This document shows positions 7,512 to 36,093 of a DNA stretch of 41,822 nt, in pieces. The notes under the pieces were generated by a model. It searched no databases. It had not been told where the DNA came from and was given only the letters and a program-made list of their open reading frames with translations. Made by a program: the position numbers and the translations under genes. This stretch comes from a virus. Position 1 is the stretch's first letter. Every line of letters starts with the position of its first letter. Location: IMG/VR virus record IMGVR_UViG_3300012357_000004, positions 1 through 41,822 of that record; one strand, written 5' to 3'.

Positions 7512-7521
7512 ATTTAAGGAA

Positions 7522-9262: not shown

Positions 9263-9385
9263 GTTCATCCCTCTTGAACTATTTATTTTTGTTTCCTTGA
9301 CTCTTCTGGGTGAAGTGGTAAGATCGCTTCTTCCGCCATGATTGACAGCACCTTTCTTACCCACAAAAACAAATGCCTACTGAGA

Positions 9386-15077: not shown

Positions 15078-15560
15078 TTAGAACTTAATCGTCACTCCTG
15101 CATCCCATCCGTACCGCCAAAGGCCGTTCTGGAAGTCCCGCGTACCCCAAAAACCAACCGTTCCGTTCTGTAAAAGATGCGCTGTAAGTCCGGTCGCATC
15201 AGCTAAGGCTTTCACTTGCGGAATATGCTCATAAAGGGCCTGGCCGACCCATAGACGGCCATTAGCGGCGTAGAAGGCATTCGCACCCTGAACGTTCGGG
15301 AGATAGCCTAAAAGGCCATCTGCGCTCACGTAGTACTCCTTGTAGAGCGTTGTGCTTGATCCCATGGCCCAAACCCCGTTTTTGATGTCTCGCAGGGTCA
15401 GAATGGATCCGTTATCGCCAATGTGGAGGCCATCTGCCAAGGTTTTAAGCACGACTGGGGTGTTCGGGTCAACGGGTGGCGGGTCAGCATGAACTACCAC
15501 GCCCAACAACGCCATCACAGCCACGACTACGACTAACAGCGGGAAGATACGAAGTTTCAT
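15078..15560 (-). CDS. Secreted beta-rich protein, 160 aa
   Basis: ATG 15560 follows AAGGAGGTTTAAA; upstream frame is a shadow. Residues 1-26 are a Sec signal peptide with cleavage after VVHA. The mature part is Pro-led (DPPPVDPNTPVVLKTLADGL) and then repeats short strands (LWVGQALYEH, VGFWGTRDFQNGLWRYGWDA) that look like an outer-membrane or beta-sandwich fold. Last gene of the late operon, after the lysis genes. Role unknown; perhaps envelope modification. Confidence 0.6.
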   Translation of the reverse strand: MKLRIFPLLVVVVAVMALLGVVVHADPPPVDPNTPVVLKTLADGLHIGDNGSILTLRDIKNGVWAMGSSTTLYKEYYVSADGLLGYLPNVQGANAFYAANGRLWVGQALYEHIPQVKALADATGLTAHLLQNGTVGFWGTRDFQNGLWRYGWDAGVTIKF

Positions 15561-15733
15561 TTTAAACCTCCTTGGGCTGATGATTTTTGAACATTTCCAC
15601 CGCAAAAATGACTGCCATAGCAGCCGCACAAAGGACACCGCGACATTGCAGGGTATATGTTTCCTAGACCTCCGATATTTTCTCTTGCTCTGGCTTGCGT
15701 ACAATCATGGCACTCGCAACGGTCATGGTTCAT
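15557..15733 (-). CDS. Zinc-binding protein, 58 aa
   Basis: MNHDRCECHDCTQARARENI in front and RCPLCGCYGSHFCGG behind give CxCxxC and CxxCxC half-sites. ATG 15733 overlaps the holin-candidate stop and the end overlaps the next ATG, ATGA at both. Its tail carries the strong SD of the next gene. Unknown function. Confidence 0.6.
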   Translation of the reverse strand: MNHDRCECHDCTQARARENIGGLGNIYPAMSRCPLCGCYGSHFCGGNVQKSSAQGGLK

Positions 15734-16071
15734 TTTGCTATCTCCTGCGGCGAGGTTGCCGCCTGTGTTATGACGGAAGTGCCCGTCGTGTGGTGCTGTG
15801 CAGCCCTTGAGAAGACGGCAATGATGGCAGGAATACCCACCAAAATCGCCGTTTTGAGCGTGTCCAATTCAATCAGGATGACAGGCCCAGACGGGTCTTG
15901 GCCCTGCCCCCATTGCAGAGGCCAGACCCCGTAAGTAACGCCCCATTGCTCAAGCATCCCTGAATGAGCCGCCAGATACGTTCCCAGTGACGCAAACGCT
16001 GCCGCTAGGGCGACGGGTGTATACTTCTTGATGCCAATCTCCAAGAGATACACCTTAAGGTTTTCCCACAT
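15730..16071 (-). CDS. Holin candidate, 113 aa
   Basis: Two predicted membrane spans: about 19-36 (YTPVALAAAFASLGTYLAAH) and 74-92 (TAILVGIPAIIAVFSRAA), separated by a hydrophilic loop with WPLQWGQGQDPSGP. Short N-terminal amphipathic helix (MWENLKVYLLEIGIKKY). Size, topology and place near the M15-type endolysin fit a class II holin. No sequence family is certain, so this is inference from topology and context. Confidence 0.6.
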   Translation of the reverse strand: MWENLKVYLLEIGIKKYTPVALAAAFASLGTYLAAHSGMLEQWGVTYGVWPLQWGQGQDPSGPVILIELDTLKTAILVGIPAIIAVFSRAAQHHTTGTSVITQAATSPQEIAK

Positions 16072-16433
16072 TAGGCATTCGCCTTAGTGATCGTCGCTTG
16101 CAGATCAGAATGCTGCTGCGTTAATTCCTGAGAGCTTGCCGTTAAATCAGCAAGAGCCGATTGGAGAGCTTGCCCTTCATTGGTCAGATCAATCCCAGAC
16201 CCTAACGCTTTCGCCAAAAGAGCGTCAACTGCCGTTTTGATCGCCACAACATCTGAATCTTCCGTAATCACCATTGCTTTAACGGATTGAACTAGACCTA
16301 CCACCTGAGTCAGAATTACGTCGAAGTCAGCCTGATTTAGTGTCATTTTATTAGTCTCCTTTTTAATTTCGAGCAAGTGTCTCTCGATCCTGCGAAATCG
16401 TCTTTCCAGCATCCGATAAAAGCAGTAATCCAT
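16071..16433 (-). CDS. Helical protein with possible dual start, 120/91 aa
   Basis: Long form from ATG 16433 (overlapping the upstream stop as TGATG) starts MDYCFYRMLERRFRRIERHL, a basic amphipathic helix. A second ATG at 16346 has the stronger ribosome site (AAAAAGGAGACTAATAAA) and gives a 91-residue helical protein, with MTLNQADFDVILTQVVGLVQ and late ALADLTASSQELTQQHSDLQ. Dual starts are known in holin/antiholin genes, but no membrane span is seen here. Likely virion or lysis accessory; function unknown. Confidence 0.55.
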   Translation of the reverse strand: MDYCFYRMLERRFRRIERHLLEIKKETNKMTLNQADFDVILTQVVGLVQSVKAMVITEDSDVVAIKTAVDALLAKALGSGIDLTNEGQALQSALADLTASSQELTQQHSDLQATITKANA

Positions 16434-16954
16434 CAATTCTTTACAGGCGGAATAACCGTCGGTGTGCTTAAGTCAAGGCTGAAAATAACATTGTAGACAG
16501 CCGTCAAAGCTCCGTAACAGACCGCCGGACTCCACGTCCCAGAAGAAACACCAAAGAACGACGGAGTAGAACAATTGACAACATATTTTGAAATTTGTCC
16601 CAAATCAACGGATCGTTCATAAACCATCCCGTTGGCAAACCCATACACATACACGGTCGCACCCAGAGAAAGGGCCTGTTCCAGGGTTGTAGGGGCCGGA
16701 GTCGGAGGACTATAGTTCGGGTTCAAACCAAACAATGTCAAAGAGTAGGTATTCGCAGCAAAGGGGTTCGCGCTAAGATTTGCCAGCGTGTAATTGGTCG
16801 CGTTCGCCAGAAACAACTTTTCGGTTCCCGTGGGCGCAGAACTTGACATGATAACGGTCGTGAAAGCTCTGGCGACGGAGCTGAAACCGAGGACGGTAAT
16901 AAGAACACCGACAATCGCCTTCGAGACACGCTTCACCTTTCCGCCACGGTTCAA
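16433..16954 (-). CDS. Secreted protein with Sec signal peptide, 173 aa
   Basis: TTG 16954 follows AAAAGGGGGCATCGTC. Residues 1-31 are a signal peptide with basic N-region (KVKRVSKAIV) and cleavage motif ARA. The mature part is Ser/Thr/Pro-rich with PPTPAPTTLEQALSLGATVY and two cysteines (NCSTPSFFG, AVCYG). No known fold. It lies within the lysis block and may be an exported or virion surface protein. Its first codons are also read in another frame by a candidate zinc protein. Confidence 0.6.
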   Translation of the reverse strand: MNRGGKVKRVSKAIVGVLITVLGFSSVARAFTTVIMSSSAPTGTEKLFLANATNYTLANLSANPFAANTYSLTLFGLNPNYSPPTPAPTTLEQALSLGATVYVYGFANGMVYERSVDLGQISKYVVNCSTPSFFGVSSGTWSPAVCYGALTAVYNVIFSLDLSTPTVIPPVKN

Positions 16955-17006
16955 GACGATGCCCCCTTTTCAGATGCCAGCATTTGCAGTATTGTGGAGC
17001 CGTCAT
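16773..17006 (-). CDS. Candidate zinc protein overlapping another gene, up to 77 aa
   Basis: ATG 17006 directly follows the endolysin stop. The first 40 residues, TAPQYCKCWHLKRGHRLEPW then KGEACLEGDCRCSYYRPRF, fit a small phage pattern of C-x-C-x-H...H...C-x4-C-x-C-x2-(F/Y)-x-P-R. The last 37 residues look random. It overlaps the signal peptide of the 16954 gene in another frame. If real, the same bases code both a zinc motif and a signal peptide. Confidence 0.4.
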   Translation of the reverse strand: MTAPQYCKCWHLKRGHRLEPWRKGEACLEGDCRCSYYRPRFQLRRQSFHDRYHVKFCAHGNRKVVSGERDQLHAGKS

Positions 17007-17360
17007 TCATGAATCCGTCCCGATCCACGCACAAGGAGATGGATAGTCCGGCGGTTCCCCAATGTCAACGTGGATATGAAGAGGGCAATCTTCAATTCTT
17101 TTGAAGCCTGACCCATAAAGCCCTTTCAGAATCGCCCAGCGTGCTGCATCCCGTTCTGCGCCTTCTTCCAGATGTCCTAAACCGATATCAACAGCCAAGC
17201 CTTTGTAGTGGGCCGAATTTGGGCTATGTCCATCGGTTGCGACAGTCGCAGTAAGACGGAATGGAACCCCCGCAATCCCCCGAGCCATATCGAGCATGGC
17301 AGGGAGATTTCCTTGAAGTCCTTTGATCTCGTCATCTGTGAAGAATTTGAAATTGCTCAT
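17007..17360 (-). CDS. Endolysin, M15-type L,D/D,D-peptidase
   Basis: Start set at ATG 17360 (AGGAAACC upstream; overlaps the stop of a zinc-type frame as ATGA); the open frame continues to 17441. The 117-residue domain has His51-x6-Asp58 (SAHYKGLAVDIG) and HIHVD (His95, His97, Asp99), the zinc site of VanY/M15_3 peptidases, which cut peptidoglycan stem peptides. No signal peptide in this form, so release would need the holin. Its location between the membrane coiled-coil protein and the holin candidate fits a lysis cassette. Confidence 0.8.
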   Translation of the reverse strand: MSNFKFFTDDEIKGLQGNLPAMLDMARGIAGVPFRLTATVATDGHSPNSAHYKGLAVDIGLGHLEEGAERDAARWAILKGLYGSGFKRIEDCPLHIHVDIGEPPDYPSPCAWIGTDS

Positions 17361-17566
17361 TGGTTTCCTATATCCTGTCCAGGTAATGGGCCAGCTCCAC
17401 CCGATTCCCAATCCTCCAAAGAAATCTCCGACCAAGGACATACGCTATAGTCTGAACATGTCAATCGCCAATCTTTTCCACCCCAAAACTGTGCTTTTAC
17501 AACGCTTTGACGACCATGGGTCAAGCAGCGTGGACAATACTTATCGACTGGGAATTTTCTAGTCTG
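17357..17566 (-). CDS. Zinc-ribbon frame without a normal start codon
   Basis: Open frame of up to 69 codons with KYCPRCLTHGRQSVVKAQFW and RLTCSDYSVCPWSE, a convincing four-cysteine ribbon, ending exactly at the endolysin start as ATGA. But in front of the first CxxC there is no ATG, GTG or TTG: TTG GAA GAC is followed by an in-frame TAG (17567-17569) in a duplicated AGACTAG. TTG 17524 would lose the first CxxC. Either a mutated gene, an assembly error, amber read-through or a non-standard start. Confidence 0.45.
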   Translation of the reverse strand, partial: QTRKFPVDKYCPRCLTHGRQSVVKAQFWGGKDWRLTCSDYSVCPWSEISLEDWESGGAGPLPGQDIGNQ

Positions 17567-17579
17567 CTAGTCTTCCAAT

Positions 17580-17858
17580 TTAAGTTTTCCTTATAATTTC
17601 CTCAAGCACTTTATCTATACGGTTTGACAGTCGATCTACCGCCGCCGTCACACGATCCTCGAAACGAGCGTGGTCTTCTTTCGTCCAATAGGAAGTTTTC
17701 ATAAGCGTTTCATTCACATCTACGCGTGCTTTTATATCTGCGCTTTCTTTCTTTACTGATTTAATATCACCCACAATCCTCCTGCGTTCTGAGGTGAGAT
17801 AAAGACCCCACCCCCCGAATGCTAACCATAGAAATATCTTTATAATATCAGTATCCAT
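17580..17858 (-). CDS. Membrane-anchored coiled-coil protein, 92 aa
   Basis: ATG 17858 overlaps the upstream TAA (TAATG). Residues 4-22 are a membrane span (IIKIFLWLAFGGWGLYLTSE), followed by a basic stretch and a coiled coil to the end (SVKKESADIKARVDVNETLM, FEDRVTAAVDRLSNRIDKVL). Small one-span plus coiled-coil proteins next to endolysins are usually holins of class III or i-spanin-like; which applies is not certain. Confidence 0.65.
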   Translation of the reverse strand: MDTDIIKIFLWLAFGGWGLYLTSERRRIVGDIKSVKKESADIKARVDVNETLMKTSYWTKEDHARFEDRVTAAVDRLSNRIDKVLEEIIRKT

Positions 17859-19237
17859 TATGGTGTCAGTGTCTTGGTTTCGATCCAATCAAATGTCGCG
17901 TCGAAACTCCCGCCTGTTACTGTCACTGCGTTTAGGTTGACGGCTAAACATTGCGCTGTTCCTCGTAAAACAATTGGCTTCATAAGCCAATCAGGCGGCG
18001 ATGAATACCCCACGTCCGAAACAGCCGTTGCGGGAGCTAGGCAACTTAAGACATATGAATCTACAAGACCTGATAATGTTCCGACTGTAGGATTCGCGGT
18101 GAAGAAAATAGCCGATGATTTGGCTACCGCATACTGTGAATCATCTGCGGTTGAAGTCATTGTAGACCATGCACCCGTATAGCCTGTATTGCGTCGGACG
18201 ACCTGCATTGAGATGTTACCTGCTACTGTTTGCGTACACGAAACCTTAAGGCCGTATACAAGGATCATATTCGTTGAATTTCCACATATGGCAGAAACGT
18301 CTGTCGCAGAAGCTGCCGATGTAATGCCTATAGTGGCGGCACGATAAGATGTCGCTCCCGTTGCATTGCTAGCAGAGACGCCAGCAGGAGACAAGCCTTC
18401 ATTTTCCGCCACTTTCAAGCTCCCCAACTGAGTTAATGCTCTTGGAAGAGCTTCAATTATAGGCGCAAGAACTGTTTGCAACTGGAATGTCGTCGTTGTT
18501 GAACCTCCGTTATTCGTCACCAGTACTCGAATATAAGAACCTGTTGCTTGTATAGTTCTAGAAGCATCAGTTCCACCGCTCCCAGACGTATAGGTCCAAG
18601 TGTCCTGAACGATCCAAGTAGATCCATCTGCCGATTGCTGAACAGCTACTGTAAGATTCTGGTCAGCAAAGACATTCACTTGCAAAGCACCTACGCCAAG
18701 CGTTGTATCGTCTAGCCCTGTAAAAGTTGCACCAGCCGCAAGCTGCGCGGTAGAACTATTCCCAGGGCTAAGAAGAACAGCTTGGTTGACTGACTGAACA
18801 GGTGAGTTATTTGAATTGGTTTGGGTAAGCTTGAAGCTCGTTTGCGCTATGACGCCATTCGTATATTTGACTCTCCAATAACGACCTCTCACCGAGCCTG
18901 TCACATAAGTCAATACGCTTGTGCTTACGGAAACGTTATTGATGATTCTGGTGAAATTTGAATCAGTCGTGTCGTCTGTTTCGTCTAATTCAAAGCCAAC
19001 TAGAGCAGAGGCTTGCGTAGAAAACGCTGCCGCTTGAACAAAGATCGTCCCTTCTCCGTTCGTGTCTATCCAAGGCCCCGTAAAAACACCACTAACACCT
19101 AGATTGGCCGTAGTTACTATACTTCCATATTTTCGGAAGATAGGACGAGTATTGCTAGTTGCATTGAATCCCGTATCGGCAAAAAGATGCGAACTTGCCA
19201 ATAATAGGGCCGTCAAAAGAATGAATCTCTTAAACAT
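17858..19237 (-). CDS. Exported beta-rich (tail fibre or adhesin-like) protein, 459 aa
   Basis: Residues 1-20 are a Sec signal peptide (MFKRFILLTALLLASSHLFA) with AxA-type cleavage. The mature part is Ser/Thr/Asn-rich beta sequence with repeated 'QSADGSTW.....W' and TGSYIRVLVTNNGGSTTTTF motifs, as in discoidin/tail-fibre-like domains. Placed after the internal proteins and before lysis, where podophages keep fibre genes. Binding role is inferred; a secreted form would be unexpected for a cytoplasmically assembled tail. Confidence 0.6.
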   Translation of the reverse strand: MFKRFILLTALLLASSHLFADTGFNATSNTRPIFRKYGSIVTTANLGVSGVFTGPWIDTNGEGTIFVQAAAFSTQASALVGFELDETDDTTDSNFTRIINNVSVSTSVLTYVTGSVRGRYWRVKYTNGVIAQTSFKLTQTNSNNSPVQSVNQAVLLSPGNSSTAQLAAGATFTGLDDTTLGVGALQVNVFADQNLTVAVQQSADGSTWIVQDTWTYTSGSGGTDASRTIQATGSYIRVLVTNNGGSTTTTFQLQTVLAPIIEALPRALTQLGSLKVAENEGLSPAGVSASNATGATSYRAATIGITSAASATDVSAICGNSTNMILVYGLKVSCTQTVAGNISMQVVRRNTGYTGAWSTMTSTADDSQYAVAKSSAIFFTANPTVGTLSGLVDSYVLSCLAPATAVSDVGYSSPPDWLMKPIVLRGTAQCLAVNLNAVTVTGGSFDATFDWIETKTLTP

Positions 19238-19255
19238 TTTATTTCTCCTTGTTTT

Positions 19256-19558
19256 TCAGTTTATGTCAAATTTGCAAACATAAGTTCCGTCAGTAGTTGC
19301 TCCCGAAATCGCAATAGTGCTCAGAATCCCAAGACTCATCTCTAGCTTTTCTGCAAACGTTCCTATCTGGCCTGTTCGCACAAACATAATAATCGCGTCT
19401 GCATCCTTTGCCGTGATGGTATAGGTATCTGTTTCATTAATGGGTTTAATTCTTAACCATCGAGAGTTAACCCATAGGGGTGAAACAGTCCCTGTGCCTG
19501 CGCCACTTGAAACGACAATATTTAGCTTTACTGATTGCTGCGGTCCTTCGTTAGCCAT
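19256..19558 (-). CDS. Small beta-rich virion-type protein, 100 aa
   Basis: No signal peptide. Beta pattern: SVKLNIVVSSGAGTGTVSPL, WVNSRWLRIKPINETDTYTI, ATTDGTYVCKFDIN. Placed between the 72-residue conserved protein and the exported fibre-like protein, so it may be a decoration or fibre-attachment protein. An SD (TAGGAGATTAGTT) precedes ATG 19558. No family recognised. Confidence 0.6.
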   Translation of the reverse strand: MANEGPQQSVKLNIVVSSGAGTGTVSPLWVNSRWLRIKPINETDTYTITAKDADAIIMFVRTGQIGTFAEKLEMSLGILSTIAISGATTDGTYVCKFDIN

Positions 19559-19572
19559 AACTAATCTCCTAT

Positions 19573-19791
19573 TTATTTTTCCGTTATTTTTGAAACATGC
19601 TGCCCAATTCCTGGATACTTCGCGTGAACTTTACTGCGAACAACTGCTTTCTGTGACGGCGTTCCAAACTGCGAAACACGTGCTAATGCGTTTCTGGCAT
19701 GGTTGGGATCTTCTATGGGATACCGACCTCCTGGAAGCGCAAAATTTGTTGGTTTGATGTGTTTTCTAGCACCGAATGTTAATTTCGACAT
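19573..19791 (-). CDS. Conserved small 'HARNALARVSQ' protein, 72 aa
   Basis: ATG 19791 follows ATGGAGGCGAT; the longer frame from 19902 is a shadow. GARKHIKPTNFALPGGRYPI, DPNHARNALARVSQFGTPSQ and KAVVRSKVHAKYPGIG match a small, very conserved domain found in phage and phage-like regions, alone or at the end of capsid/protease proteins. Role unknown; probable virion-associated. Confidence 0.75.
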   Translation of the reverse strand: MSKLTFGARKHIKPTNFALPGGRYPIEDPNHARNALARVSQFGTPSQKAVVRSKVHAKYPGIGQHVSKITEK

Positions 19792-19892
19792 ATCGCCTCC
19801 ATTTTTGGGTCTTGATCTTTGAATACTGCGGTGGTATAAAAAAGTATGATTATTTTGGCTTGGGCAACATTCTTCATAGTTTTCCTTCTCAT
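19779..19892 (-). CDS. Possible micro-protein, 37 aa
   Basis: ATG 19892 with CAGGTGATCGCAG ahead; sequence MRRKTMKNVAQAKIIILFYT has a weak hydrophobic helix. It overlaps the start of the next gene by 13 bases. Only SD, position and the filled gap support it. Confidence 0.3.
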   Translation of the reverse strand: MRRKTMKNVAQAKIIILFYTTAVFKDQDPKMEAICRN

Positions 19893-19932
19893 CTGCGATC
19901 ACCTGGAAAATAAAAACGACTATAAACCTTAA

Positions 19933-20829
19933 TCATTTAGAAAGACTTTTCGCTGCCCCTACTCCTAATCCTACGCCAATGGCTTCCTTTAAAGCCTGCT
20001 TTCCATACTTCTGAATAAAATTCATGATAGGAGTAGTCAAATCGGGATGAAGTGTCTTAGCAAGAGAATAAGCCTGATTCAAAGATTCCCTTCCTGCGAT
20101 CGCTTTATTATAAAGATCGCCGATTTGACCATTAATATCAGAAGCCATTGCATATTGTGGCGTTCCTCGAACTACTTCTGCTTTATTGAACATTTCAGGT
20201 AAAATCTTTTTGTAATCAGAAAGCTCTTGAGGAGAAAGATTTTCCCCAAACTGGGCTATTCGGCTTTGAATAAAATTCAGAAGAGCATTTGTATTTTTTG
20301 GGTATTGCATAGGTTTTATGTCGGGAATAGAATTCATTGGGCTATTGGGAGGTATGGCGGTTCCTCCTGGCGTTACTGTCATTACTTCTGAAGCACTTTT
20401 AGGAAAACGCGCTACGCTCCCTGCTCGAATAGGCAACTGATCTGTAACGCCGGCAGCCTGTTCTCCAACATTCATTTGTTGACCAATTTGTTTGGGCGTA
20501 TTGACGATTGCTTTAGCAACAGGGCTATCCGAATTGTAGAGTCCTCTTAAAGACCCATAAGCAGCCAAAATTTCAGGAGATATTTTTAAAGCAGTCCCAA
20601 TTGCTGCCCCTGTTCTTGGATAACCTGTCGCCAAACCCGCATCTGAAATGCTTTGTGCCATCGGGTCTATAGTATTCTGTCTCGCCACATCCCATGGTCG
20701 TGGAATGGCATTCGCCATCTTAGCCGCCTGTTTAACGACATCCCATTGGCTAGACCCTCCATTTGGAGCCTGAGCAGGAGCCGTATCTTCCCATGTAGGA
20801 GCTGTCTCATCCCAAGTAGGATTAGCCAT
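19933..20829 (-). CDS. Internal/ejection-type virion protein, 298 aa
   Basis: Begins MANPTWDETAPTWEDTAPAQ, a repeated W-D/E-x-T-A-P motif typical of internal virion proteins of podophages. Middle part is Pro/Gly-rich; residues 180-280 helical; the end has LKEAIGVGLGVGAAKSLSK, a glycine-zipper that could insert in a membrane. ATG overlaps the upstream stop (TAATG). It is the third of three consecutive such proteins, analogous to P22 gp7/gp20/gp16 or T7 gp14-16. Role inferred. Confidence 0.65.
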   Translation of the reverse strand: MANPTWDETAPTWEDTAPAQAPNGGSSQWDVVKQAAKMANAIPRPWDVARQNTIDPMAQSISDAGLATGYPRTGAAIGTALKISPEILAAYGSLRGLYNSDSPVAKAIVNTPKQIGQQMNVGEQAAGVTDQLPIRAGSVARFPKSASEVMTVTPGGTAIPPNSPMNSIPDIKPMQYPKNTNALLNFIQSRIAQFGENLSPQELSDYKKILPEMFNKAEVVRGTPQYAMASDINGQIGDLYNKAIAGRESLNQAYSLAKTLHPDLTTPIMNFIQKYGKQALKEAIGVGLGVGAAKSLSK

Positions 20830-22001
20830 TAGAGATATCTCTTAAATTGTTTCGTCGCAGAATCGAAAACAGCTTTTCTTCCGTCTTTCGTTTGGCGCGT
20901 CACTTCTCCTGATTGCGCAGACTGTGGAGTAGCAGAAGGAAGTCCTTCTCCTTTTATTGCGCCAGCCACATTTTTTATATTCTGATCGTTGCCTGTTTCC
21001 AGGGCGCTTATCATTTGATTCAATCGACCTAGTTTTTGCTGTGCAAAAACGGGCGTATCCTTTGGTTTAGGCATCAGGCTATCCATCAAGAAATTTGCCT
21101 CTTGTTCATTAAAACGTTTTGTCAATTCGTAATTAAGTGCTGCTGTAAGAGGAGCGGAAACATTTTGGATATTGGCTCCTGCTGCATTCCCTATTCGGCC
21201 CCCAGTCACTGTATATGCTTTCGATGTAATATCCCCTCCTAAACTAGGCTTATTCTGGGAAACAGCCCCAGCCAGATCATTGTAAAGACCGCGCAGTTGA
21301 CTAATCCTCGTCGTGTTATCTCCCTCTTTACTGACTTCCCCAGCGACTGTTTTTTTGACTTCCATCTGTTTCTGGGCAGCCTGATTGTAGGCTTCAATAG
21401 GAGCACTTCCTCCATAAGAATCTGAAATCTGACCAGGATCGCCACTCGTAATAGCCGCTCCTTGAGCAGGTGTTGCAAACCTTGCATTGGCTGCTCGAAT
21501 AGAAGCCTCTTTGTTTTTCATTTCAACTGGCTGCATCGCCAAATCGCCCATCGTTTTATAATTCTGCATTTGCTCTTTACCATAATCTCCCATTTGCGAA
21601 AGCTGGTCTAAAGGAATGCCAGTAGGATTCCATCCTGTTGCCATCGCGTGCGCCTGCACAATTGGACTTACGGATGGGGAAGAAGACACGCCCGCAGTTG
21701 GTATAGGAGAAGAAGGAGAAGGAACAGCCGAGGGAGTGGTAGGCTCATTAAAAACGTTGGGATCAAGACCTGCTATTCGTGCCGTCTGTCCTCCAATTTT
21801 ACCAACCAAATAAGGACCACCGGCCTTAAATAGATTTCCTAATTCTCCTGTAGCCTGTGTACGCAATTGTTGTTCATACACCTTTTGGTGAACATAGCTT
21901 TGCAACGCCTGGTTAATACCCTCAGACGCGATCTGTCCAGGACTTGGCCTGTTCAGATAGGCATTTACGAGGTCAGTAGGAGGTTCAAATTTTAAGGCCA
22001 T
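20829..22001 (-). CDS. Internal/ejection-type virion protein, 390 aa
   Basis: Start set at ATG 22001 behind GGAGGGAGTTACTAA; the open frame extends to 22025. The protein opens MALKFEPPTDLVNAYLNRPS and then has a Gln/Ala-rich helix, a Pro/Ser linker (TPSAVPSPSSPIPTAG), and a helical C-terminal half with FNEQEANFLMDSLMPKPKDT. This domain order, low complexity and position between the tail genes fit an ejected internal protein. No enzymatic motif such as a lytic transglycosylase was seen. Confidence 0.6.
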   Translation of the reverse strand: MALKFEPPTDLVNAYLNRPSPGQIASEGINQALQSYVHQKVYEQQLRTQATGELGNLFKAGGPYLVGKIGGQTARIAGLDPNVFNEPTTPSAVPSPSSPIPTAGVSSSPSVSPIVQAHAMATGWNPTGIPLDQLSQMGDYGKEQMQNYKTMGDLAMQPVEMKNKEASIRAANARFATPAQGAAITSGDPGQISDSYGGSAPIEAYNQAAQKQMEVKKTVAGEVSKEGDNTTRISQLRGLYNDLAGAVSQNKPSLGGDITSKAYTVTGGRIGNAAGANIQNVSAPLTAALNYELTKRFNEQEANFLMDSLMPKPKDTPVFAQQKLGRLNQMISALETGNDQNIKNVAGAIKGEGLPSATPQSAQSGEVTRQTKDGRKAVFDSATKQFKRYL

Positions 22002-22002
22002 G

Positions 22003-23028
22003 TTAGTAACTCCCTCCATAGGCATTTTGTCCAGCTGTTCCTAATCCAGATCCAACTCCGTAACCGGCACTAATGGCTTGCGGATTACCTTTTCCTAGAT
22101 AGGCTCCTAAGCCAGCTCCTAATAAACCACCAGCTAATCCTCCGATTCCATTGTTTCGTTTCCCATAATTAGCCAAGTAACTGTTATAAAGCTGCGCCTG
22201 GGAATTGAAATCGCTCAAATCATTGACTCGGTTAGCCGTGTTTTGAAGTGCGCCATATTTGGCCTGAATTCCAAAATTGGTTAAGTTCTGCTGATTAGCT
22301 ACGGCATTGGCATAATCCTGGTAAGCATTCTGCTGACGACCTTGATATTGTGAAGCACTTAACCCCGCAAGGTATTGCTGCCGCCCGACGTTCTGCTGTT
22401 GCGCCGAATTTGTTGCCGCGCCCTGGAATGCTGACGAATCAAAAGATCTCCCCTGTTTCGCATACGCTTCCTGAAGAGACGGAAGAATGTTGTTTTTAAA
22501 ATATTGTTGGTCGTAACCAGAAAGTTGCCCCGAAAGCTGATCCTGAAAGTTCTTGTCTTGTTTTTGTGTATATTCAGGCTGTTGCTGTAGAAACTGCTGA
22601 AGCTGATAGGGGTCGGAGTTTCCGGAGGCAAGAAGGCTCCCGAAATGATTAAGTTCGTCCTGGGTAGCCGAACGTCCGAATTGCCCTTGGAACAAATTAT
22701 TTACTTGTCCTGAAAATTGCGGGGCTTTGGCTAAGTTATCGGCTTGCTGTTTAGCAGCAATCTTATCGGGAGAGTTTTGTTCCTGCTGGTAAAGATTAGA
22801 GACAAATGCTCCGCCATTCCCACCTGGTTGCTGATAGGCAGGCATTGCTTGGGCCACTTCCTGGGTTGTCGGAAGTCTCCCGAAGATGTTCTGGTAATCA
22901 TTGGCGATATTGACAAGCCAAGGGTTTCCTACATCCTTCCCAGCCTGGACAGCATCATTCTGTCGGCCTGCTTTGTAGGTGTTTAGTGTATTACGAATAT
23001 AGTCGTCATTTAAAGTTGGAGATGCCAT
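22003..23028 (-). CDS. Internal virion protein with repeats and glycine zipper, 341 aa
   Basis: Two similar N-terminal units, NDYQNIFGRLPTTQEVAQAM and LFQGQFGRSATQDELNHFGS, resemble DUF4214-type repeats ('FGRxPTxxE'). A Gln/Tyr-rich middle (YAKQGRSFDSSAFQGAATNS, QQQNVGRQQYLAGLSASQYQ) follows, then a glycine-rich end (GGLAGGLLGAGLGAYLGKGN) that could span a membrane. The last feature is typical of podophage ejection proteins (for example P22 gp7/gp20 relatives). Function inferred. Confidence 0.65.
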   Translation of the reverse strand: MASPTLNDDYIRNTLNTYKAGRQNDAVQAGKDVGNPWLVNIANDYQNIFGRLPTTQEVAQAMPAYQQPGGNGGAFVSNLYQQEQNSPDKIAAKQQADNLAKAPQFSGQVNNLFQGQFGRSATQDELNHFGSLLASGNSDPYQLQQFLQQQPEYTQKQDKNFQDQLSGQLSGYDQQYFKNNILPSLQEAYAKQGRSFDSSAFQGAATNSAQQQNVGRQQYLAGLSASQYQGRQQNAYQDYANAVANQQNLTNFGIQAKYGALQNTANRVNDLSDFNSQAQLYNSYLANYGKRNNGIGGLAGGLLGAGLGAYLGKGNPQAISAGYGVGSGLGTAGQNAYGGSY

Positions 23029-23041
23029 TCTAATTTCCTTT

Positions 23042-23713
23042 TTATGTCTTAATAATGAACATAATAACTGCGCTAGGTTGCATTTGATTAAAAGCCGTAC
23101 CAGTTCCCGAACTATTAATTACAATTCCCGTGGTACTCGATTGACTTGTAAAAGAACCAAGAGAGGTATTATTCCCGAAATTTGCCTGAATACGAGTCGT
23201 ATCTGCTCCTGATCCATTTCCTTGTGTGATATTATGGGTATGTCCTGGGTCAGTAATCGCATGAGAGTGAGAAGGCATCTCAGAAATGCTCATAATATGA
23301 GTCTCTTCTCCGCCAGTACTCCCAACCGTATTAGAAAGAGTAGCCGTCCCGACTCCACCAACTCCCACAGGTGTTTTTCTTCTGAAATCGGGTAAATTAA
23401 ATGTTGTAGATCCATCACCTGAACCCCAAGTTATATTAATGGCAGAAAAAAGATTTGCATATGTGGTTCTGCTAACGGCAGATCCATCACAAGATAGAAA
23501 ACCAGAAGGAGCTGAACTGCCTCCATACAAAACAAGACTTCCAGCCGGAAGCAATGTAGAAGAATTTATTCGTACATTTCCTCTCAAGATAGTTCCAATA
23601 TCTTTATAGATATTCACCATCTCATCATTTAGGTGCGGGTCTTGATAGTTGTACTTAGGACCCGACGCCCATAGAGGGCAAGCTAAGAATAAAAGAAAGA
23701 GTGTTTTTCTCAT
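23042..23713 (-). CDS. Tail collar-domain protein with signal peptide, 223 aa
   Basis: Residues 1-17 are a Sec signal peptide (MRKTLFLLFLACPLWAS). Residues 55-115 are a phage tail Collar domain: LPAGSLVLYGGSSAPSGFLS, CDGSAVSRTTYANLF and GDGSTTFNLPDFRRKTPVGV. The C-terminal half has SHSHAITDPGHTHNI, His-rich as in fibre tips that hold metal ions. Such proteins form fibre tips. The start overlaps the tail-hub stop (ATGA). The signal peptide is unexpected on a tail protein. Confidence 0.8.
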   Translation of the reverse strand: MRKTLFLLFLACPLWASGPKYNYQDPHLNDEMVNIYKDIGTILRGNVRINSSTLLPAGSLVLYGGSSAPSGFLSCDGSAVSRTTYANLFSAINITWGSGDGSTTFNLPDFRRKTPVGVGGVGTATLSNTVGSTGGEETHIMSISEMPSHSHAITDPGHTHNITQGNGSGADTTRIQANFGNNTSLGSFTSQSSTTGIVINSSGTGTAFNQMQPSAVIMFIIKT

Positions 23714-26031
23714 GGCGATGTAGGCCTATAAGGAAGCTGCATAAAACCAATCCGGTAGCCAAGAATCTCCCAGGCACTTGACGCAGAGGTGTCGCCATAC
23801 TGGATATTGAAGACTTGACCTAATTTCCCAGAAGGTAGAAGTTTCCGGCTCTGAACAATACTCCGAAGAGAGTCAGACATGCTAATGGAATAGGTCGTCG
23901 TTGTTGACGTATCCATAACGTATGTTGCGGTCAATGTCGTTCCCTGGTTCTTCTTAGCGAATGTGTCGATATTGGTTAATTGATTTTGGAGGAAAGGATC
24001 ATTGCCTGTATAGTCCTTTGATTTCCAGAATGCATTAATGGCTGTCCCGTTGTCCGACGTCGCACCTCCATAATTGAAAACATTGCTGCCAGTCGAAGTA
24101 TCACCAAAATAAAGCGTGTTGGCTTGCACAAGCATTCCACCGGCCCCAAAGTTGTAAAGCGTCCACCCTTCATTCAGAAGGTCATACTTGAAAATATAGT
24201 TGTTCGTGGATTGCCCAGAACCAAAAGCGATTGTCTCCCAAATCGCATTGTCAAAATAGATCATGTACGCCTGATCTGCCGCCGTTCCCTCGAACCAATT
24301 AATCGTGAAATCATCAAAGCCAGGGACTTTATTAGAGGAAGATGTGACCGTCATGGTGTCTTTAAGTTGGAAATAAGTTCCCGTGCTTATGGAAATCAAG
24401 CCTCCCGATGTGACTGTCAACCACGTAGGTGTAGAAGAAGAAACTGTGAAAGAGTTTGTCGATGATCGCATCATCAGGGCGTGCGTACCGCCGGTATCGT
24501 TATTCGATAAATTCAAGGTAGACCAACCTGTTATATTGGGAGCGTTATGGACAGAAGAAGTATAAACTCCCGAGCTGATCGAACTAACGCCTCCCGTCGT
24601 GATGCTGTCTATTTCCATGGCGTACGCACCGGAAGCAAATAAATTTCCGCTATAGTGGAATGTGATGTTGCCACCAATAATGAAAGCTGCCGTACTAACC
24701 ACATAATCCGTTCCCGTCAGGAACCTTAAATAAGCCCTTTTGCCTAGAGAACTAGAAGCAACAATAGTTCCCGTAGACCAAATACAATTACTAAGAACAG
24801 GCAGAGCGACTTGATCTAAGACATTACTATTAAGATCAATTAGTTGAGCGTAAGACAAAACAGATCCATTCGCCCCAGTACATTCACCCATGCTTGATGC
24901 ATCTAGTGGTGAAATGGTCCCACAAGAAGGAGTATTTAACCCACTTCTGATAGTACAGATAGATGATGATTGTGCCCAAGAAGACCCATTTTCAAAACTC
25001 CGCTCGTTCCAGTTCAAAGTATTATCCGTCGAAACATTTACGCTGTTATTGCTGATGGTTACGCTGCTTGTAAGCCCAGAAGAAAAATCAGAATTGGATG
25101 TTTGGGTCCATAGATTGCTGGTTCTTTTACCAGCCAATTGAATATCAGGCGTTATAGGAACCGTCTGTTTAGTCAAAATAGAGCAGTCGTACATCCATGT
25201 GTGCCCATCCTGACCTCTAAACCAGACCCTCCCACCTGGATCAATGGCGGAGGTGTTATCGAAAGTCCCGATCACGTCAGAAACAGTCTTCACCTGGGCC
25301 GCAAACTGATCGTCAAAGTCAAAGTAGCCGAAGGACTGATCTTTCCACCACAAGAGCTTTCCGCATCCCCAACGAATATTCGTGATCTTGGAACCAGGCG
25401 CGGCGATCACTTCGTTAAAAGCGTCTGTCGCATTTACGCCTACCGTAAAATTGGTGAATGTATTGGATTGAGAGACAAAAAGCGTATTGGGCGAACCTGA
25501 AACACCGGCTACCACAATTCGATCTGGGGTAGATTCCACCATCGTTCCAAGAGGACTGGTGAACCATGTCATGGTAGTCCCGTTGGTCCTGATATAGGCA
25601 TCGCGGTTGGAATCCACACAGTAGGAATTTTGCTGGGTATCAGCACAGTCCCAGGTTGAACTCAGCGTAGCCGAAGAAACAAGCTGTATAGGTGTTGCAT
25701 CTGCCACAATCCCGTAAAGAGATGTACTGGAACCCCAAAGCTGATAATCATTCCCAGAAGAGTCAAAAGCGTGATAACCACCATGAAGAGCTTTAGAAGT
25801 ACTTAAAGCCTTGTATGTGCCGTAACCAGACCTTTTCTTGAAGCTTTGACCTGTAATGGACACATCGACATTCAGAAGGTCTTGCGCCTCAGAAGGATCA
25901 ATCAGAACGCTATTCGCCTGGTTATTAAGGCCTCTAAACTTCGCGGAGGTGATTTGGTCAGCAAACGCCCATTTTGGCCCCGAAAAGGCCATCAGTGCGC
26001 CAAAGAAGGCTATTCTAAGACTCTTTCTCAT
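23710..26031 (-). CDS. Large tail-hub/stabilisation-like protein with signal peptide, 773 aa
   Basis: Residues 1-24 are a Sec signal peptide (MRKSLRIAFFGALMAFSGPK, cleavage after AFA). The next part, FRGLNNQANSVLIDPSEAQD then LLNVDVSITGQSFKKRSGYG, is the start of podophage tail-hub or stabilisation proteins ('GLN...AxdlxNvdl...lrkRpGy'). The rest is repetitive beta sequence, likely a propeller, with late segments ISMSDSLRSIVQSRKLLPSG and YRIGFMQLPYRP. It follows the adaptor gene as expected for a tail-hub gene. Both ends overlap neighbours as ATGA. Confidence 0.75.
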   Translation of the reverse strand: MRKSLRIAFFGALMAFSGPKWAFADQITSAKFRGLNNQANSVLIDPSEAQDLLNVDVSITGQSFKKRSGYGTYKALSTSKALHGGYHAFDSSGNDYQLWGSSTSLYGIVADATPIQLVSSATLSSTWDCADTQQNSYCVDSNRDAYIRTNGTTMTWFTSPLGTMVESTPDRIVVAGVSGSPNTLFVSQSNTFTNFTVGVNATDAFNEVIAAPGSKITNIRWGCGKLLWWKDQSFGYFDFDDQFAAQVKTVSDVIGTFDNTSAIDPGGRVWFRGQDGHTWMYDCSILTKQTVPITPDIQLAGKRTSNLWTQTSNSDFSSGLTSSVTISNNSVNVSTDNTLNWNERSFENGSSWAQSSSICTIRSGLNTPSCGTISPLDASSMGECTGANGSVLSYAQLIDLNSNVLDQVALPVLSNCIWSTGTIVASSSLGKRAYLRFLTGTDYVVSTAAFIIGGNITFHYSGNLFASGAYAMEIDSITTGGVSSISSGVYTSSVHNAPNITGWSTLNLSNNDTGGTHALMMRSSTNSFTVSSSTPTWLTVTSGGLISISTGTYFQLKDTMTVTSSSNKVPGFDDFTINWFEGTAADQAYMIYFDNAIWETIAFGSGQSTNNYIFKYDLLNEGWTLYNFGAGGMLVQANTLYFGDTSTGSNVFNYGGATSDNGTAINAFWKSKDYTGNDPFLQNQLTNIDTFAKKNQGTTLTATYVMDTSTTTTYSISMSDSLRSIVQSRKLLPSGKLGQVFNIQYGDTSASSAWEILGYRIGFMQLPYRPTSP

Positions 26032-26735
26032 TTAGGTTGTATGACATTCCCCGAATTCCAGTAACGACCACCAGACATCCGTTTAGGGGTTTCTGCTTCT
26101 AGGGCCTTAAACACCTGCACAACATCCGCCATCACGTTCTGGGCAATCTGGATGTATCCGGCCTGTTTTGGACTATTAATAGGGCTAGGATCGCGCCCAA
26201 GGAGACGAGCAGCAGCAGAATAGGCTAATCCCCAATCGTAAGGCCGTAAAAGGTAGTTTGAGGAAGTCCCAAGCAAAAACGGGACATCCATAGAACTTGC
26301 CATAGCGGTATGGGCAATAATCGCTTCCACCACCAAATTAGCTCCCGCATCATTCCCTTGTGGAGTTGGATGAAGCGTTAAGTAAAGATTGGATGGATCA
26401 GTTGCTTCTATGCAATACTCAACTGGTGTTCCAAGATCCTGCGTCCAATCAAGACCGTATAGATCAAAATACTGTTTACTACGCTTATGGATATCAATCC
26501 CCTTGTGCGTCACCCTCGAGAATGAAATAGGCGTACCTGTTATAAGCGTCAGAAGGTATTGGCGTTGGTTCGTAACTGTTGTGATGGTCGTCGTTTCCTT
26601 AATAATCTTGGCCTCAATATTCCAGTTGGCTTGGCTGTTATCGAGTTCCGTATTGATATCAGTAAGCGAGTAGCGATCATGGTTAGGATCACTCGTCAAA
26701 TTACCTACCAACGTTTGTAAATCAGACAGTTGCAT
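26028..26735 (-). CDS. Head-tail adaptor protein, 235 aa
   Basis: Sequence MQLSDLQTLVGNLTSDPNHD followed by SLTDINTELDNSQANWNIEA, a 'TNQRQYLL' strand, an 'LGTPVEY' turn and DPSNLYLTLHPTPQGNDAGA fits the podophage adaptor/gp6-like family (helical bundle with a beta insertion) that docks below the portal. The later helices hold SAAARLLGRDPSPINSPKQA. It starts 14 bases inside the glycosyltransferase gene upstream and overlaps the tail-hub start. Family by pattern; role by position. Confidence 0.7.
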   Translation of the reverse strand: MQLSDLQTLVGNLTSDPNHDRYSLTDINTELDNSQANWNIEAKIIKETTTITTVTNQRQYLLTLITGTPISFSRVTHKGIDIHKRSKQYFDLYGLDWTQDLGTPVEYCIEATDPSNLYLTLHPTPQGNDAGANLVVEAIIAHTAMASSMDVPFLLGTSSNYLLRPYDWGLAYSAAARLLGRDPSPINSPKQAGYIQIAQNVMADVVQVFKALEAETPKRMSGGRYWNSGNVIQPK

Positions 26736-30982: not shown

Positions 30983-32032
30983 TTACGCGATCAACTCATG
31001 GACGAACAAGATACGGCCAGCAGACGGGTTTAATGCCGCTCCCGCTCCGTAGATCTTGTAAGCAACATCTGTGAACTGATTGAAAGGGTCGCCTTTATCG
31101 GGCCCCCGCGCAATCAGCATTTCGACTTGCCCATTTAGCGTGGTCAGTCCATACGCCTGTTGTCCGAAGACAAAGATCATATTGACCGAGTGCGCCGTCA
31201 CCGCATACCGAGGAGCTTCCGTCGAAGTGACGAACCGAATACCTTCAATCTGCCCCGTCTCTCCGCGATAGAACGTTTCTTTGGAGTTCTGGTACTGGTT
31301 GAAGTTCACCCAGGTAGGATCACGCCGGAGCGCATGGAGCGCGTTCGGATGCGTATAACCCACAAACAAGTTATCCGCCATCGGCCGCGCATTCTGGGCG
31401 CGCAGTTTCTGCAACGTACGCCGAAGCGCGTTAACGGAAGCTTGAGCCGAGAGTGTCGGAGCCGTCTTTGAAACAGCCGACAAACGAGCCGCCGAAGTCC
31501 CGAATACGGCAGGGAATTGGAACAAGCTGTTTGAGTTGTTATTAGAAGGGCAAGTCACAAGAGACATGCCGGAAGCCAAAGAACTCATCAAAGCCGACAG
31601 AATTCCTGTGGTTGATAGGTTGTTTCCGTAAGAACTCTTGTAAATGCCCGTCTGGCAAATGCGTTCGACCGTCTTTGCAGCAGAGTCCGAAAGAACGTCC
31701 ATCGCGCCATTCACAGTATCGAAAATGGCCGTCATCTGGAAAAGGTCAGTCAGTTTATGGCCGCGTCCGTATCCAGCGATGGTTGCCGTGACTCTGCGAG
31801 ACGAAAGAGCTACCAGGGAGTTGGTAACACCTTCCGCTAACGTCGAGGAAGCCGCACCAAGAGTTCTCCAGCCGTTCCAAGTGGCGGTCGTGCCTGTCCG
31901 CAAAGGAAGTTCATCCCGTTGCGCGAATTCTGCTAACTTCACCTGCGGTTCAAGCCGGACAATCATCTTCTGGCTAAACCACGACTGCATGAGGTTGCTA
32001 TTTGTGACTGTAGTGCTGTTTGAATCAGCCAT
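30983..32032 (-). CDS. Major capsid protein, N4 gp56 family
   Basis: A 349-residue protein with the family's hallmark blocks: FAQRDELPLRTGTTATWNGW near the N-terminus, LRAQNARPMADNLFVGYTHP, ALHALRRDPTW, YRGETGQIEGIRFVTSTEAP and a late AYGLTTLNGQVEMLIARGPD. It forms the capsid shell with an HK97-type fold. Somewhat shorter than N4 gp56 (about 400). ATG 32032 has no SD close by; a hairpin at 32041-32080 may bring one near (see that entry). Neighbours are scaffold-like (upstream) and glycosyltransferases (downstream). Confidence 0.93.
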   Translation of the reverse strand: MADSNSTTVTNSNLMQSWFSQKMIVRLEPQVKLAEFAQRDELPLRTGTTATWNGWRTLGAASSTLAEGVTNSLVALSSRRVTATIAGYGRGHKLTDLFQMTAIFDTVNGAMDVLSDSAAKTVERICQTGIYKSSYGNNLSTTGILSALMSSLASGMSLVTCPSNNNSNSLFQFPAVFGTSAARLSAVSKTAPTLSAQASVNALRRTLQKLRAQNARPMADNLFVGYTHPNALHALRRDPTWVNFNQYQNSKETFYRGETGQIEGIRFVTSTEAPRYAVTAHSVNMIFVFGQQAYGLTTLNGQVEMLIARGPDKGDPFNQFTDVAYKIYGAGAALNPSAGRILFVHELIA

Positions 32033-32040
32033 AACAATGA

Positions 32041-32088
32041 GAACAGCCTAGGCTACTTGCGTAGCGTGCACCGTTCTCCTCTTACGGC
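32041..32088 (-). promoter_or_regulatory. Hairpin that may bring a distant SD to the capsid start
   Basis: On the transcribed strand AAGAGGAGAAC (about 32088-32075) precedes a hairpin: GAGAAC pairs with GTTCTC (32041-32046), enclosing a GCTAC-GCAA-GTAGC stem-loop (32054-32067). The G-rich SD lies more than 40 bases from the ATG linearly but about 6 bases across the folded stem. Confidence 0.5.
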
Positions 32089-32111
32089 ACGAAAAGTTTT
32101 AGCGGACGGAA

Positions 32112-33080
32112 CTACCCTCGATTTCCAGCCAACATCGCACGGATCGCCGCATCCCCAGCCGCTTCCTGATTTTTATCACGAAGATCAAGCTTATGGAGAT
32201 TGGCAACGACATCCTGCGGTAGCGTAGAAACCGATGACGATGGAGCGGAAGGTGGTGTGCCACCGCCCAAAACGGGCGATGGCCTGCTGGGTTGTGCCTG
32301 TGCCCCCGAAGGGACATCTCCCAGTCGCATCTCTTCCTTGACTTCTAACCAAGCAGCTTTATGAGGGTTTTTCAACTTCCAGAGGTCGGGATCAGACTGA
32401 AGCTTCACATTGACCGCCGCAAAGATATCTTCACGCAAAATACGCGGGTCTTTGGATGCCAATGTCTGAAGATTTAAGCGCGTTACTTCCGCTTTCTCGC
32501 GTTCCTCCATAGGCTGAAGCTTCTTTTGAATCATCAGTTCTAAAAGACGGGCCGTTGTCCCTAGGGGATCAGCCGCGTAATCGCGCCGGACAATCTCCTC
32601 GAAGTTCTGAGGAGCGACAATTTCCTGCACGGGCGCAGGAGCCGCTGTGGGAAGTTGTGCGGCTAAACGCTCGGGATTTGGAATATTTCTAAACTTCCTT
32701 TCCCTCTCGTTATATTCGCGCATATAATCATCCACCGTCTTTGAAACCGCCTCTTCTTTCTTCTGAATTACCTCATCAAGTTGCTTGGTTGAAGCCTGTA
32801 TTTTCTCAACGTCCACTGCTCCATCGGGTTTTAAGAACTTTTGAGGAACCTCCGTTGCCGGACTAGCCGGAGTCGGATTGAGAATCCCACCTTGTGCAAT
32901 ATCCTGCAAGGTAATGGTTTGCGGGTCGAGATTCTTTGCTTCAGCGTCCAAAGTCGCCTGACGGACAATCGCATCGCTGATGGGTGCTTCCAGCGAACCT
33001 AGAATGTCAATAGGTTGTGCCTTCGGACCTGTTCGGTTCGTCGCGGGTTCTATGATGACTTCTCCTGGTATTACGTTCAT
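32112..33080 (-). CDS. Scaffolding-like head assembly protein, 322 aa
   Basis: Position between portal and capsid, Glu/Gln/Lys-rich helical sequence (QASTKQLDEVIQKKEEAVSK, RLLELMIQKKLQPMEEREKA) with Pro-rich linkers, and a C-terminal helix LHKLDLRDKNQEAAGDAAIR: the composition of podophage scaffolds, whose C-terminal helix binds capsid protein. AAGGAGACAGC precedes ATG 33080. No protease motif seen. Assignment by place and composition. Confidence 0.65.
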   Translation of the reverse strand: MNVIPGEVIIEPATNRTGPKAQPIDILGSLEAPISDAIVRQATLDAEAKNLDPQTITLQDIAQGGILNPTPASPATEVPQKFLKPDGAVDVEKIQASTKQLDEVIQKKEEAVSKTVDDYMREYNERERKFRNIPNPERLAAQLPTAAPAPVQEIVAPQNFEEIVRRDYAADPLGTTARLLELMIQKKLQPMEEREKAEVTRLNLQTLASKDPRILREDIFAAVNVKLQSDPDLWKLKNPHKAAWLEVKEEMRLGDVPSGAQAQPSRPSPVLGGGTPPSAPSSSVSTLPQDVVANLHKLDLRDKNQEAAGDAAIRAMLAGNRG

Positions 33081-33135
33081 GCTGTCTCCTTGGCCCGTCC
33101 CGTTAAGGATTGGAGGCCGATTATTCCATGCAAGA

Positions 33136-33471
33136 TCACGCCGTCACACGATCCAAATCAATAATTGGTCGTGGATTAGGGCGTTTTTCTTGCGCTCCTA
33201 GTACAACTTTTCTTCGTGCCGAAAGCACCGCCTGGAAAACATCCTGATAGGCTTTGCGTCTCGCACACAAATCGAGTAATCCCATCTCGCTGCCTGACAA
33301 AAGCCGCTTGTCTACTTCCATATTGATGCGTTTAAGCTCTTCAAAGCATTCCTGTAACCAAAGCGACCGAACCGATAAATCATTAAATGCTTCCCCAATC
33401 GCTGAGATATCCAAATCGTTAAACTGTTCCACATGAAACAAATCACTCAACCATCTCTTAACGTGACTCAT
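33136..33471 (-). CDS. Hypothetical protein after portal, 111 aa
   Basis: Helical with LSVRSLWLQECFEELKRINM and CARRKAYQDVFQAVLSARRK. Small proteins with this second motif follow portal genes in many phages and have no fixed name. ATG 33471 overlaps the portal stop (ATGA). Probably a head-assembly accessory. Confidence 0.6.
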   Translation of the reverse strand: MSHVKRWLSDLFHVEQFNDLDISAIGEAFNDLSVRSLWLQECFEELKRINMEVDKRLLSGSEMGLLDLCARRKAYQDVFQAVLSARRKVVLGAQEKRPNPRPIIDLDRVTA

Positions 33472-35537: not shown

Positions 35538-35761
35538 CAGCTCTCGGGAAGCGAGTATTCGCCTTTTATCTGCTGGCTTGTCTTAAACGGCTCTGCAAGA
35601 CTGGCCTTAGTACTTAATCCAGTCGGAGCATTTTCGTTTCCGAAAAGATTAGGCCCTGCGCCAGGGCCACCACCGCCATGCCCCTCTGGAAGACTGTATT
35701 CTCCGCGTTTCTGCTGACTGGTCTGAATGTCCGTCTTTTGCGTGATCTTTGTGTCGTCCAT
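35537..35761 (-). CDS. TSQQ-repeat protein B, 74 aa
   Basis: Contains two copies of a 14-residue motif: TSQQKRGEYSLPEG (14-27) and TSQQIKGEYSLPES (61-74, the very C-terminus), joined by a Gly/Asn-rich linker (GHGGGGPGAGPNLFGNENAP). The neighbour at 35771 has two more. Likely disordered with short docking motifs. Located between terminase and portal. Not recognised. Its stop overlaps the portal start as TGATG. Confidence 0.65.
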   Translation of the reverse strand: MDDTKITQKTDIQTSQQKRGEYSLPEGHGGGGPGAGPNLFGNENAPTGLSTKASLAEPFKTSQQIKGEYSLPES

Positions 35762-35770
35762 AAATCCTCC

Positions 35771-36076
35771 TTAAGATTCCGGTAAACTATGATCTGAGGC
35801 AGCCTGCTGGCTTGTCTGCAACTTATTCGCATGACCGCCCTGATCGAGCATGTTTCCTGCACCCGCTTTGTACTTTCCTTCAGCTAACTGGTGTTCCCCG
35901 CGATCTTGTTGAGAAGTAGACACCAAATCCTTATTGGTCTGGCTTCCGTTGCCGCCGTTCGTCACAGCCACTTTTAACTTGTTCGACGGATCAACAAGCG
36001 GCTCCGGCCAATTATTCTCTGGGATATTAATTATGTTCGGCTGATTCACTTGCACCGTCTCTCTGTTGTCAGGCAT
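35771..36076 (-). CDS. TSQQ-repeat protein A, 101 aa
   Basis: N-terminal 50 residues (NQPNIINIPENNWPEPLVDP) then TSQQDRGEHQLAEG (54-67) and, at the very end, TSQQAASDHSLPES (88-101). With protein B this makes four motif copies in two adjacent proteins that both end SLPES, as if one arose from the other by duplication. Pro/Asn-rich and probably disordered. Possibly head-assembly adaptors; function unknown. Confidence 0.65.
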   Translation of the reverse strand: MPDNRETVQVNQPNIINIPENNWPEPLVDPSNKLKVAVTNGGNGSQTNKDLVSTSQQDRGEHQLAEGKYKAGAGNMLDQGGHANKLQTSQQAASDHSLPES

Positions 36077-36093
36077 ATGGTCTCCCTTGGCCG

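Follow-up and report, generated by a model that had tools for sequence, protein, structure and literature searches.

Predicted Sec signal peptides on nozzle, collar and fibre proteins of uncultured podoviruses and the possibility of virion assembly in two compartments

Tailed phages are taught to assemble entirely in the cytoplasm. Why, then, would the nozzle, collar/tip and fibre-like proteins of a tailed phage each begin with what looks like a Sec signal peptide? The question is raised by the 41,822-base IMG/VR virus record IMGVR_UViG_3300012357_000004 (positions 1 to 41,822, the whole of which is called the window here), an uncultured tailed phage of the podovirus type (short-tailed). The minus strand of the window encodes a terminase, a portal, a scaffold, a capsid, four glycosyltransferase-like proteins, an adaptor, the nozzle, the collar/tip protein, three internal-type proteins, the fibre-like protein and lysis genes. 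A tyrosine integrase at 8213-9364 suggests that the phage is temperate.

Signal peptides were called with a rule-based score, not a dedicated predictor, built from the charge of the n-region, the hydrophobicity of the h-region and the residues at −3 and −1. The score was calibrated on 46 genes of E. coli K-12 with a working threshold of 3.3, and all genes at or above it encoded exported, lipo- or envelope proteins, known or annotated; none of the P22 and T7 proteins tested reached it. An earlier note on this DNA had described textbook Sec signals on five open reading frames (ORFs), and all five were recovered on the minus strand with scores from 3.62 to 5.01 (Table 1). They are of the Sec/signal peptidase I type, with a charged n-region, a hydrophobic core and small residues at −3/−1. 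Random N-termini of the same composition reached 3.6 in 0.15% of cases, and on shuffling each N-terminus its own score was reached in 0-15 of 2000 trials. No twin-arginine motif was seen on inspection of the signals. The lipoprotein route by signal peptidase II was rejected: the window collar contains FLAC, but the cysteine is absent in most relatives, and a lipobox scan picked out none of the five proteins. Judged from the sequence, the five N-terminal signals are confirmed as real. The predicted mature N-terminal peptides are DQITSAK for the nozzle, DTGFNATSNTRPIFR for the fibre and SGPKYNYQDPHLNDEMVNIYK for the N-terminus of the collar.

The view that these are tail proteins held to a different degree for each. 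The nozzle gene lies directly after the adaptor, itself assigned by position, in the structural operon, and neither protein gave a convincing sequence-family match (for the nozzle in Pfam, PHROGs and PDB sequences). A model of the first 306 mature nozzle residues, made with 12 sequences, had a predicted local distance difference test score (pLDDT) of 53 and a predicted template modelling score of 0.53; its top three Foldseek matches in the PDB were the nozzles of Pa223, Pan3 and VP1, with P22 lower down. The full-length model (pLDDT 44) matched proteins annotated as P22 Gp10 in BFVD and was discarded as poor for the PDB search, where it met mostly generic propellers. The models are weak and the matches specific, and they support the 773-residue protein as a P22 gp10-like nozzle with a predicted beta-propeller.

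The collar matched PF07484 (E = 7e-20, 71.2 bits against a curated cut-off of 24). This domain was found in the window collar only, the C-terminal domains of its relatives differing completely. In all collars the signal is followed by a conserved anchor, GGPKYTYPDPxGLDDEMxNIYHDI, roughly 30 residues long, and then by the C-terminal domain; mean pairwise identity is highest in the anchor (0.44), against 0.33 in the signal and 0.31 in the remainder. As read from the alignment, this is the layout of a receptor-binding protein whose conserved virion anchor stands directly behind the predicted cleavage site. The best collar match, in Acinetobacter phage Alexa, was set aside since it spans adjoining tail-fibre genes of a sheath-tailed phage and has no bearing on the signal. 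Predicted structure supports the nozzle and the domain match the collar, and the fibre is assigned by position and modularity only; that real tail proteins have real Sec signals is supported, and the relatives strengthen it much. For the proteins at 16433-16954 and 15078-15560 the signals are real and the label of tail part is unsupported. The homologue of the former in relative G001 also begins with a signal. The latter is the ATG-started form of a longer TTG-started ORF (15078-15704) and had no family match; its C-terminus, ...GLWRYGWDAGVTIKF (ending GVTIKF), resembles that of a small outer-membrane protein, which would point to a diderm host.

Relatives were collected from IMG/VR by portal, capsid and nozzle alignments, which gave about a dozen, and further parts were fetched. 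A pattern search with the nozzle alone found nothing, the last nozzle scan brought no new genomes, and GTDB genomes held no relative by capsid and only distant matches to the integrase. Gene order is conserved among the relatives. Nozzles were compared in 12 genomes (the window, G061, G001, G003, G004, G008, G005, G006, G007, G009, G010 and L032), and since the genomes are related the following counts are not independent. In all 11 genomes where its start could be read the collar gene was signal-led, as was the main fibre in 6/6 (the window, G001, G005, G007, G008 and G009), with the "/DTG" behind the fibre cleavage site of the window recurring in three of these relatives. For the nozzle, a signal-like segment was present in 12/12 (scores 3.2-4.4) when the start codon was ignored, and the score was at least 3.3 in 5/12 when ATG, GTG or TTG was required. 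The comparison with tail-hub and collar homologues proposed in the earlier note came out in favour of the signals, which are more than a chance property of a single contig.

No signal was found among 157 other proteins of the clade, namely terminase (0/11), portal (0/13), scaffold (0/18), capsid (0/22), glycosyltransferase-like (0/58), adaptor (0/12) and internal proteins (0/23). Among 106 proteins of nine reference podophages (P22, T7, N4, LKA1, epsilon15, BPP-1, HTVC010P, Pascal and API480), the sole protein scoring at least 3.3 was a spanin. The feature is common to three unrelated protein families and absent from many others, with its border lying precisely at the step from adaptor to nozzle.

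The nozzle of Bacillus phage Pascal gave a weak but clear blastp match to that of the window; it has no signal and the alignment begins at the first mature residue, so that the signal is a module added before an ordinary nozzle. Compared with L043, L031 and L047, the nozzle signal of the window (25960-26031) shares 74% identity with the signal of the distant G007, the mature parts being about 43% identical, and is close to the signals of G006 and G008 also in DNA; those of the nearer relatives G001 and G004 are unrelated to it. Module exchange or an extra constraint could possibly have given this pattern.

Cysteines were distributed in pairs. The nozzle residues C105 and C114 (mature numbering) do not vary and lie cross-strand in one hairpin in both weak models, and C199 and C259 occur together in five genomes and are jointly missing from the other seven (12/12 consistent). 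A CSTC pair occurs in the nozzles of two genomes, and the cysteines of collar and fibre are likewise gained and lost in near pairs. The cysteine total is even in 9/12 nozzles, which alone is weak evidence. Paired gain and loss suggests disulfides and, with them, an oxidising compartment.

We propose, with a confidence that stops a little short of an even chance, that the virion is assembled from two compartments. The nozzle, the collar/tip protein and the fibres would carry cleavable Sec signals that take them across the inner membrane and are then removed by signal peptidase I, and folding, with disulfides, would follow outside the cytoplasm. The head, including portal, adaptor and internal proteins, would form in the cytoplasm and receive its DNA there. 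All parts distal to the adaptor would meet the filled head once the holin opens the inner membrane, the adaptor-nozzle interface being the joint between the halves. The conserved anchor directly behind the predicted collar cleavage site speaks for such an assembly. Podophages, P22 among them, attach the tail once packaging is over, and for P22 in vitro assembly from heads and tail or baseplate parts is cited (PMC3741392). The analysis shows the signals, their conservation, their confinement to proteins distal to the adaptor and the identity of the nozzle. Export of the signal-bearing tail proteins is well supported at the level of sequence, the support for translocation and oxidative folding is indirect, and we infer that the signals are cleaved in vivo, that the halves join at lysis and that the host is diderm.

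Several points weigh against this proposal. P22 particles that lack the gp26 plug begin to lose their DNA before lysis (PMC3741392), and some other plug would thus be required in an untailed head; the adaptor or the internal proteins would have to close it and are candidate plugs only. The open-access literature searched contained no account of tailed phages with Sec signals on their tail proteins; in papers on phages signals belong to lysis proteins or come up only in methods or references, and according to one paper the target proteins of phage diversity-generating retroelements are without them. The case is built on a rule-based score and on sequence, and the nozzle signal of the window has more in common with distant relatives than an ordinary signal would require. 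Moreover, 6/12 genomes (G005, G006, G007, G009, G010 and L032) have no ATG, GTG or TTG before the nozzle signal.

These irregular start codons are the weakest point for the nozzle and leave unaffected the collar and fibre, where an ordinary start codon, in most cases ATG, opens the signal. Nozzle frame and adaptor stop overlap, usually in the −1 frame, and the nozzle starts with ATGA in the window, ATG in G061 and G001 and TTG in G003, G004 and G008. In the six others a TTA or CTA overlaps the adaptor stop, in most cases with K or R next, and ATC or ACG is nearby in some. The junctions are found at 26028-26031 of the window and at L031:10007, L043:17003, L048:16500, L042:12718, L030:4670 and L032:1148. 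Non-canonical reinitiation, a frameshift or internal initiation within the hydrophobic core are possible explanations. For an adaptor-nozzle frameshift fusion, inspection showed no slippery heptamer common to the relatives, and RNA folding behind the adaptor stop is inconsistent (z 0.4, 0.3, −2.2 and −2.7), so that reinitiation is the preferred candidate. That the clade builds its virion from two compartments and that in some members a UUA or CUA which overlaps the stop codon of the adaptor may initiate the nozzle is a combined claim on which we lean somewhat further towards doubt.

The earlier note had named homologues that begin behind the hydrophobic segment, with a conserved internal start, as the finding that would speak against its reading. 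The first canonical start does lie within the hydrophobic segment in half of the relatives, but the segment upstream is signal-like and conserved in frame, and in G009 an internal start would cost conserved mature residues; an internal nozzle start is disfavoured because of G009 and of this upstream conservation. The same evidence bears on the idea of two forms, in which an internal start yields the cytoplasmic nozzle used for virions and the form with the signal leaves the cytoplasm to serve some other purpose. An ATG or TTG is present in the hydrophobic core in most relatives and is the first canonical start in five, but G009 and G004 have no such codon before the conserved mature residues, the leftover hydrophobic stub would be unusual and neither collar nor fibre has a counterpart, which makes two forms quite improbable. 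Pure artefact, by chance hydrophobic N-termini or wrong starts with no export function, can draw on those start codons and on the kind of score used; it is very improbable given that three unrelated families share the signal across deep divergence and that it is absent from the 157 clade proteins and from 105/106 reference proteins.

Of the three options listed in the earlier note, assembly at the envelope fits best, with uncleaved anchoring and surface display as further possibilities. With an uncleaved anchor, the proteins would be translocated but remain attached to the inner membrane on its outer face, serving as a docking platform, or the hydrophobic peptide would be carried into the virion for entry. 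The identity of the nozzle signal to that of G007 goes beyond the need of a disposable signal, but the small −3/−1 residues precede a conserved mature start in all three families and the nozzle signals of other relatives are unrelated in sequence, so that such anchoring is unlikely. Display on, or release from, the host in a non-virion role (superinfection exclusion, decoys or adhesins) would suit the exchangeable receptor-binding-like C-terminal domains of collar and fibre and the other exported proteins encoded nearby. Each genome examined has one nozzle and no second, signal-less one was seen in them, and the nozzle is essential in related podophages; we regard this role as no less improbable than two forms, if not slightly more so.

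Assembly from two compartments may be set beside known systems. Salmonella phage P22 (gp4 adaptor, gp10 hub, gp26 needle) has the same order of adaptor, hub, tip protein and ejection proteins, and its hub fold matches the window nozzle by Foldseek; it differs in that no tested head or tail protein has a Sec signal and in its tip, gp26, where the window has a protein of the collar/fibre type. The closest isolates by capsid are the Bacillus Pagevirus phages Page and Pascal and Paenibacillus phage API480. Their nozzles are homologous from the first mature residue, but nozzle and fibres lack signals and the hosts are Gram-positive; membership of Pagevirus was rejected, the capsid identity being only 21-23%. 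Two uncultured phages from Manatee Spring, Podoviridae sp. ctQWt234 and ctLwi270, have a collar/fibre-like protein with a signal-like start beside the nozzle (Table 1), but their nozzles have no signal and the segment of ctLwi270 lacks positive charge. Viral-contig scans with these two nozzles gave nothing usable. Because of these phages, exported fibres may be more widespread than exported nozzles and perhaps an evolutionary intermediate. Filamentous phages have single-stranded DNA and a membrane-embedded coat, are extruded without lysis and possess no head, portal or tail. They are similar (Inoviridae, with Sec-dependent coat proteins) in having virion proteins with signal sequences and using the host export machinery (PMC4823517).

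A tail of known type with Sec signals added is not reported in the open-access literature searched. If the proposal is true, the assembly of a tailed phage can be split across a membrane, receptor-binding proteins could use disulfides, and how DNA stays in an untailed head becomes a question. Split assembly, if shown, would be categorically new, none having been found for Caudoviricetes in the literature searched. Existing viral metaproteomes offer a cheap test in virion peptides that begin where cleavage is predicted. As for annotation, a protein is not excluded from the virion just because it has a signal peptide.

Table 1. Coordinates of the features in the window and of signal-bearing genes in other genomes; a slash marks the predicted cleavage site.
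Feature	Position	Strand	Basis
Tail nozzle/hub (P22 gp10-like), 773 aa, predicted N-terminal Sec signal	23710..26031	-	Foldseek of predicted N-terminal domain; BFVD P22 Gp10; synteny after adaptor
Nozzle signal peptide, MRKSLRIAFFGALMAFSGPKWAFA/DQIT	25960..26031	-	score 3.62; signal-like segment in 12/12, start codon ignored
Collar/tip protein: signal, ~30-aa conserved anchor, PF07484 domain	23042..23713	-	PF07484; alignment of relatives
Collar signal peptide, MRKTLFLLFLACPLWA/SGPK	23666..23713	-	score 3.94; 11/11 relatives
Fibre-like protein, 459 aa	17858..19237	-	position and modular N-terminus; relatives at the same place are long modular proteins with signal peptide and DTG
Fibre-like protein signal peptide, MFKRFILLTALLLASSHLFA/DTGF	19178..19237	-	score 3.94; 6/6 genomes
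Predicted exported protein, 173 aa, TTG start, 30-aa signal, MNRGGKVKRVSKAIVGVLITVLGFSSVARA/FTTV	16433..16954	-	score 4.34; G001 homologue likewise signal-led
Predicted exported protein, 160 aa, MKLRIFPLLVVVVAVMALLGVVVHA/DPPP, C-terminus ...WRYGWDAGVTIKF	15078..15560	-	score 5.01
Adaptor (by position), without signal; stop overlaps nozzle start (ATGA)	26028..26735	-	signal in 0/12 relatives
Three internal-virion-type proteins (by position), without signal	19933..23028	-	0/23 in relatives
Capsid, scaffold, portal and terminase genes, without signal	30983..37521	-	PHROG matches; 0/64 in relatives
Signal-like fibre/collar proteins	L077:27247-28632 (ctQWt234), L082:2503-3528 (ctLwi270)
Small signal-bearing protein	L030:299-619, L031:5639-5947, L043:12704-12961, L048:12141-12428, L050:13357-13638

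Between capsid and adaptor, a cassette of four glycosyltransferase-like genes (26722-30925; Pfam matches for three of the four proteins) is kept throughout the clade and is also present in ctQWt234; it may decorate the virion or the host surface. In several relatives a small signal-bearing protein (85-106 aa), not found in the window, is encoded just before the second glycosyltransferase gene. Elsewhere in the window, a short ORF on the plus strand (7474-7704) has a lipoprotein signal, MRYYLLFFLLFLSG/C, and the ORF at 13681-14175 has an N-terminal R/V/G repeat (RVRVRGRVRV...) that probably stems from a simple repeat in the DNA, its remainder containing a transmembrane segment.

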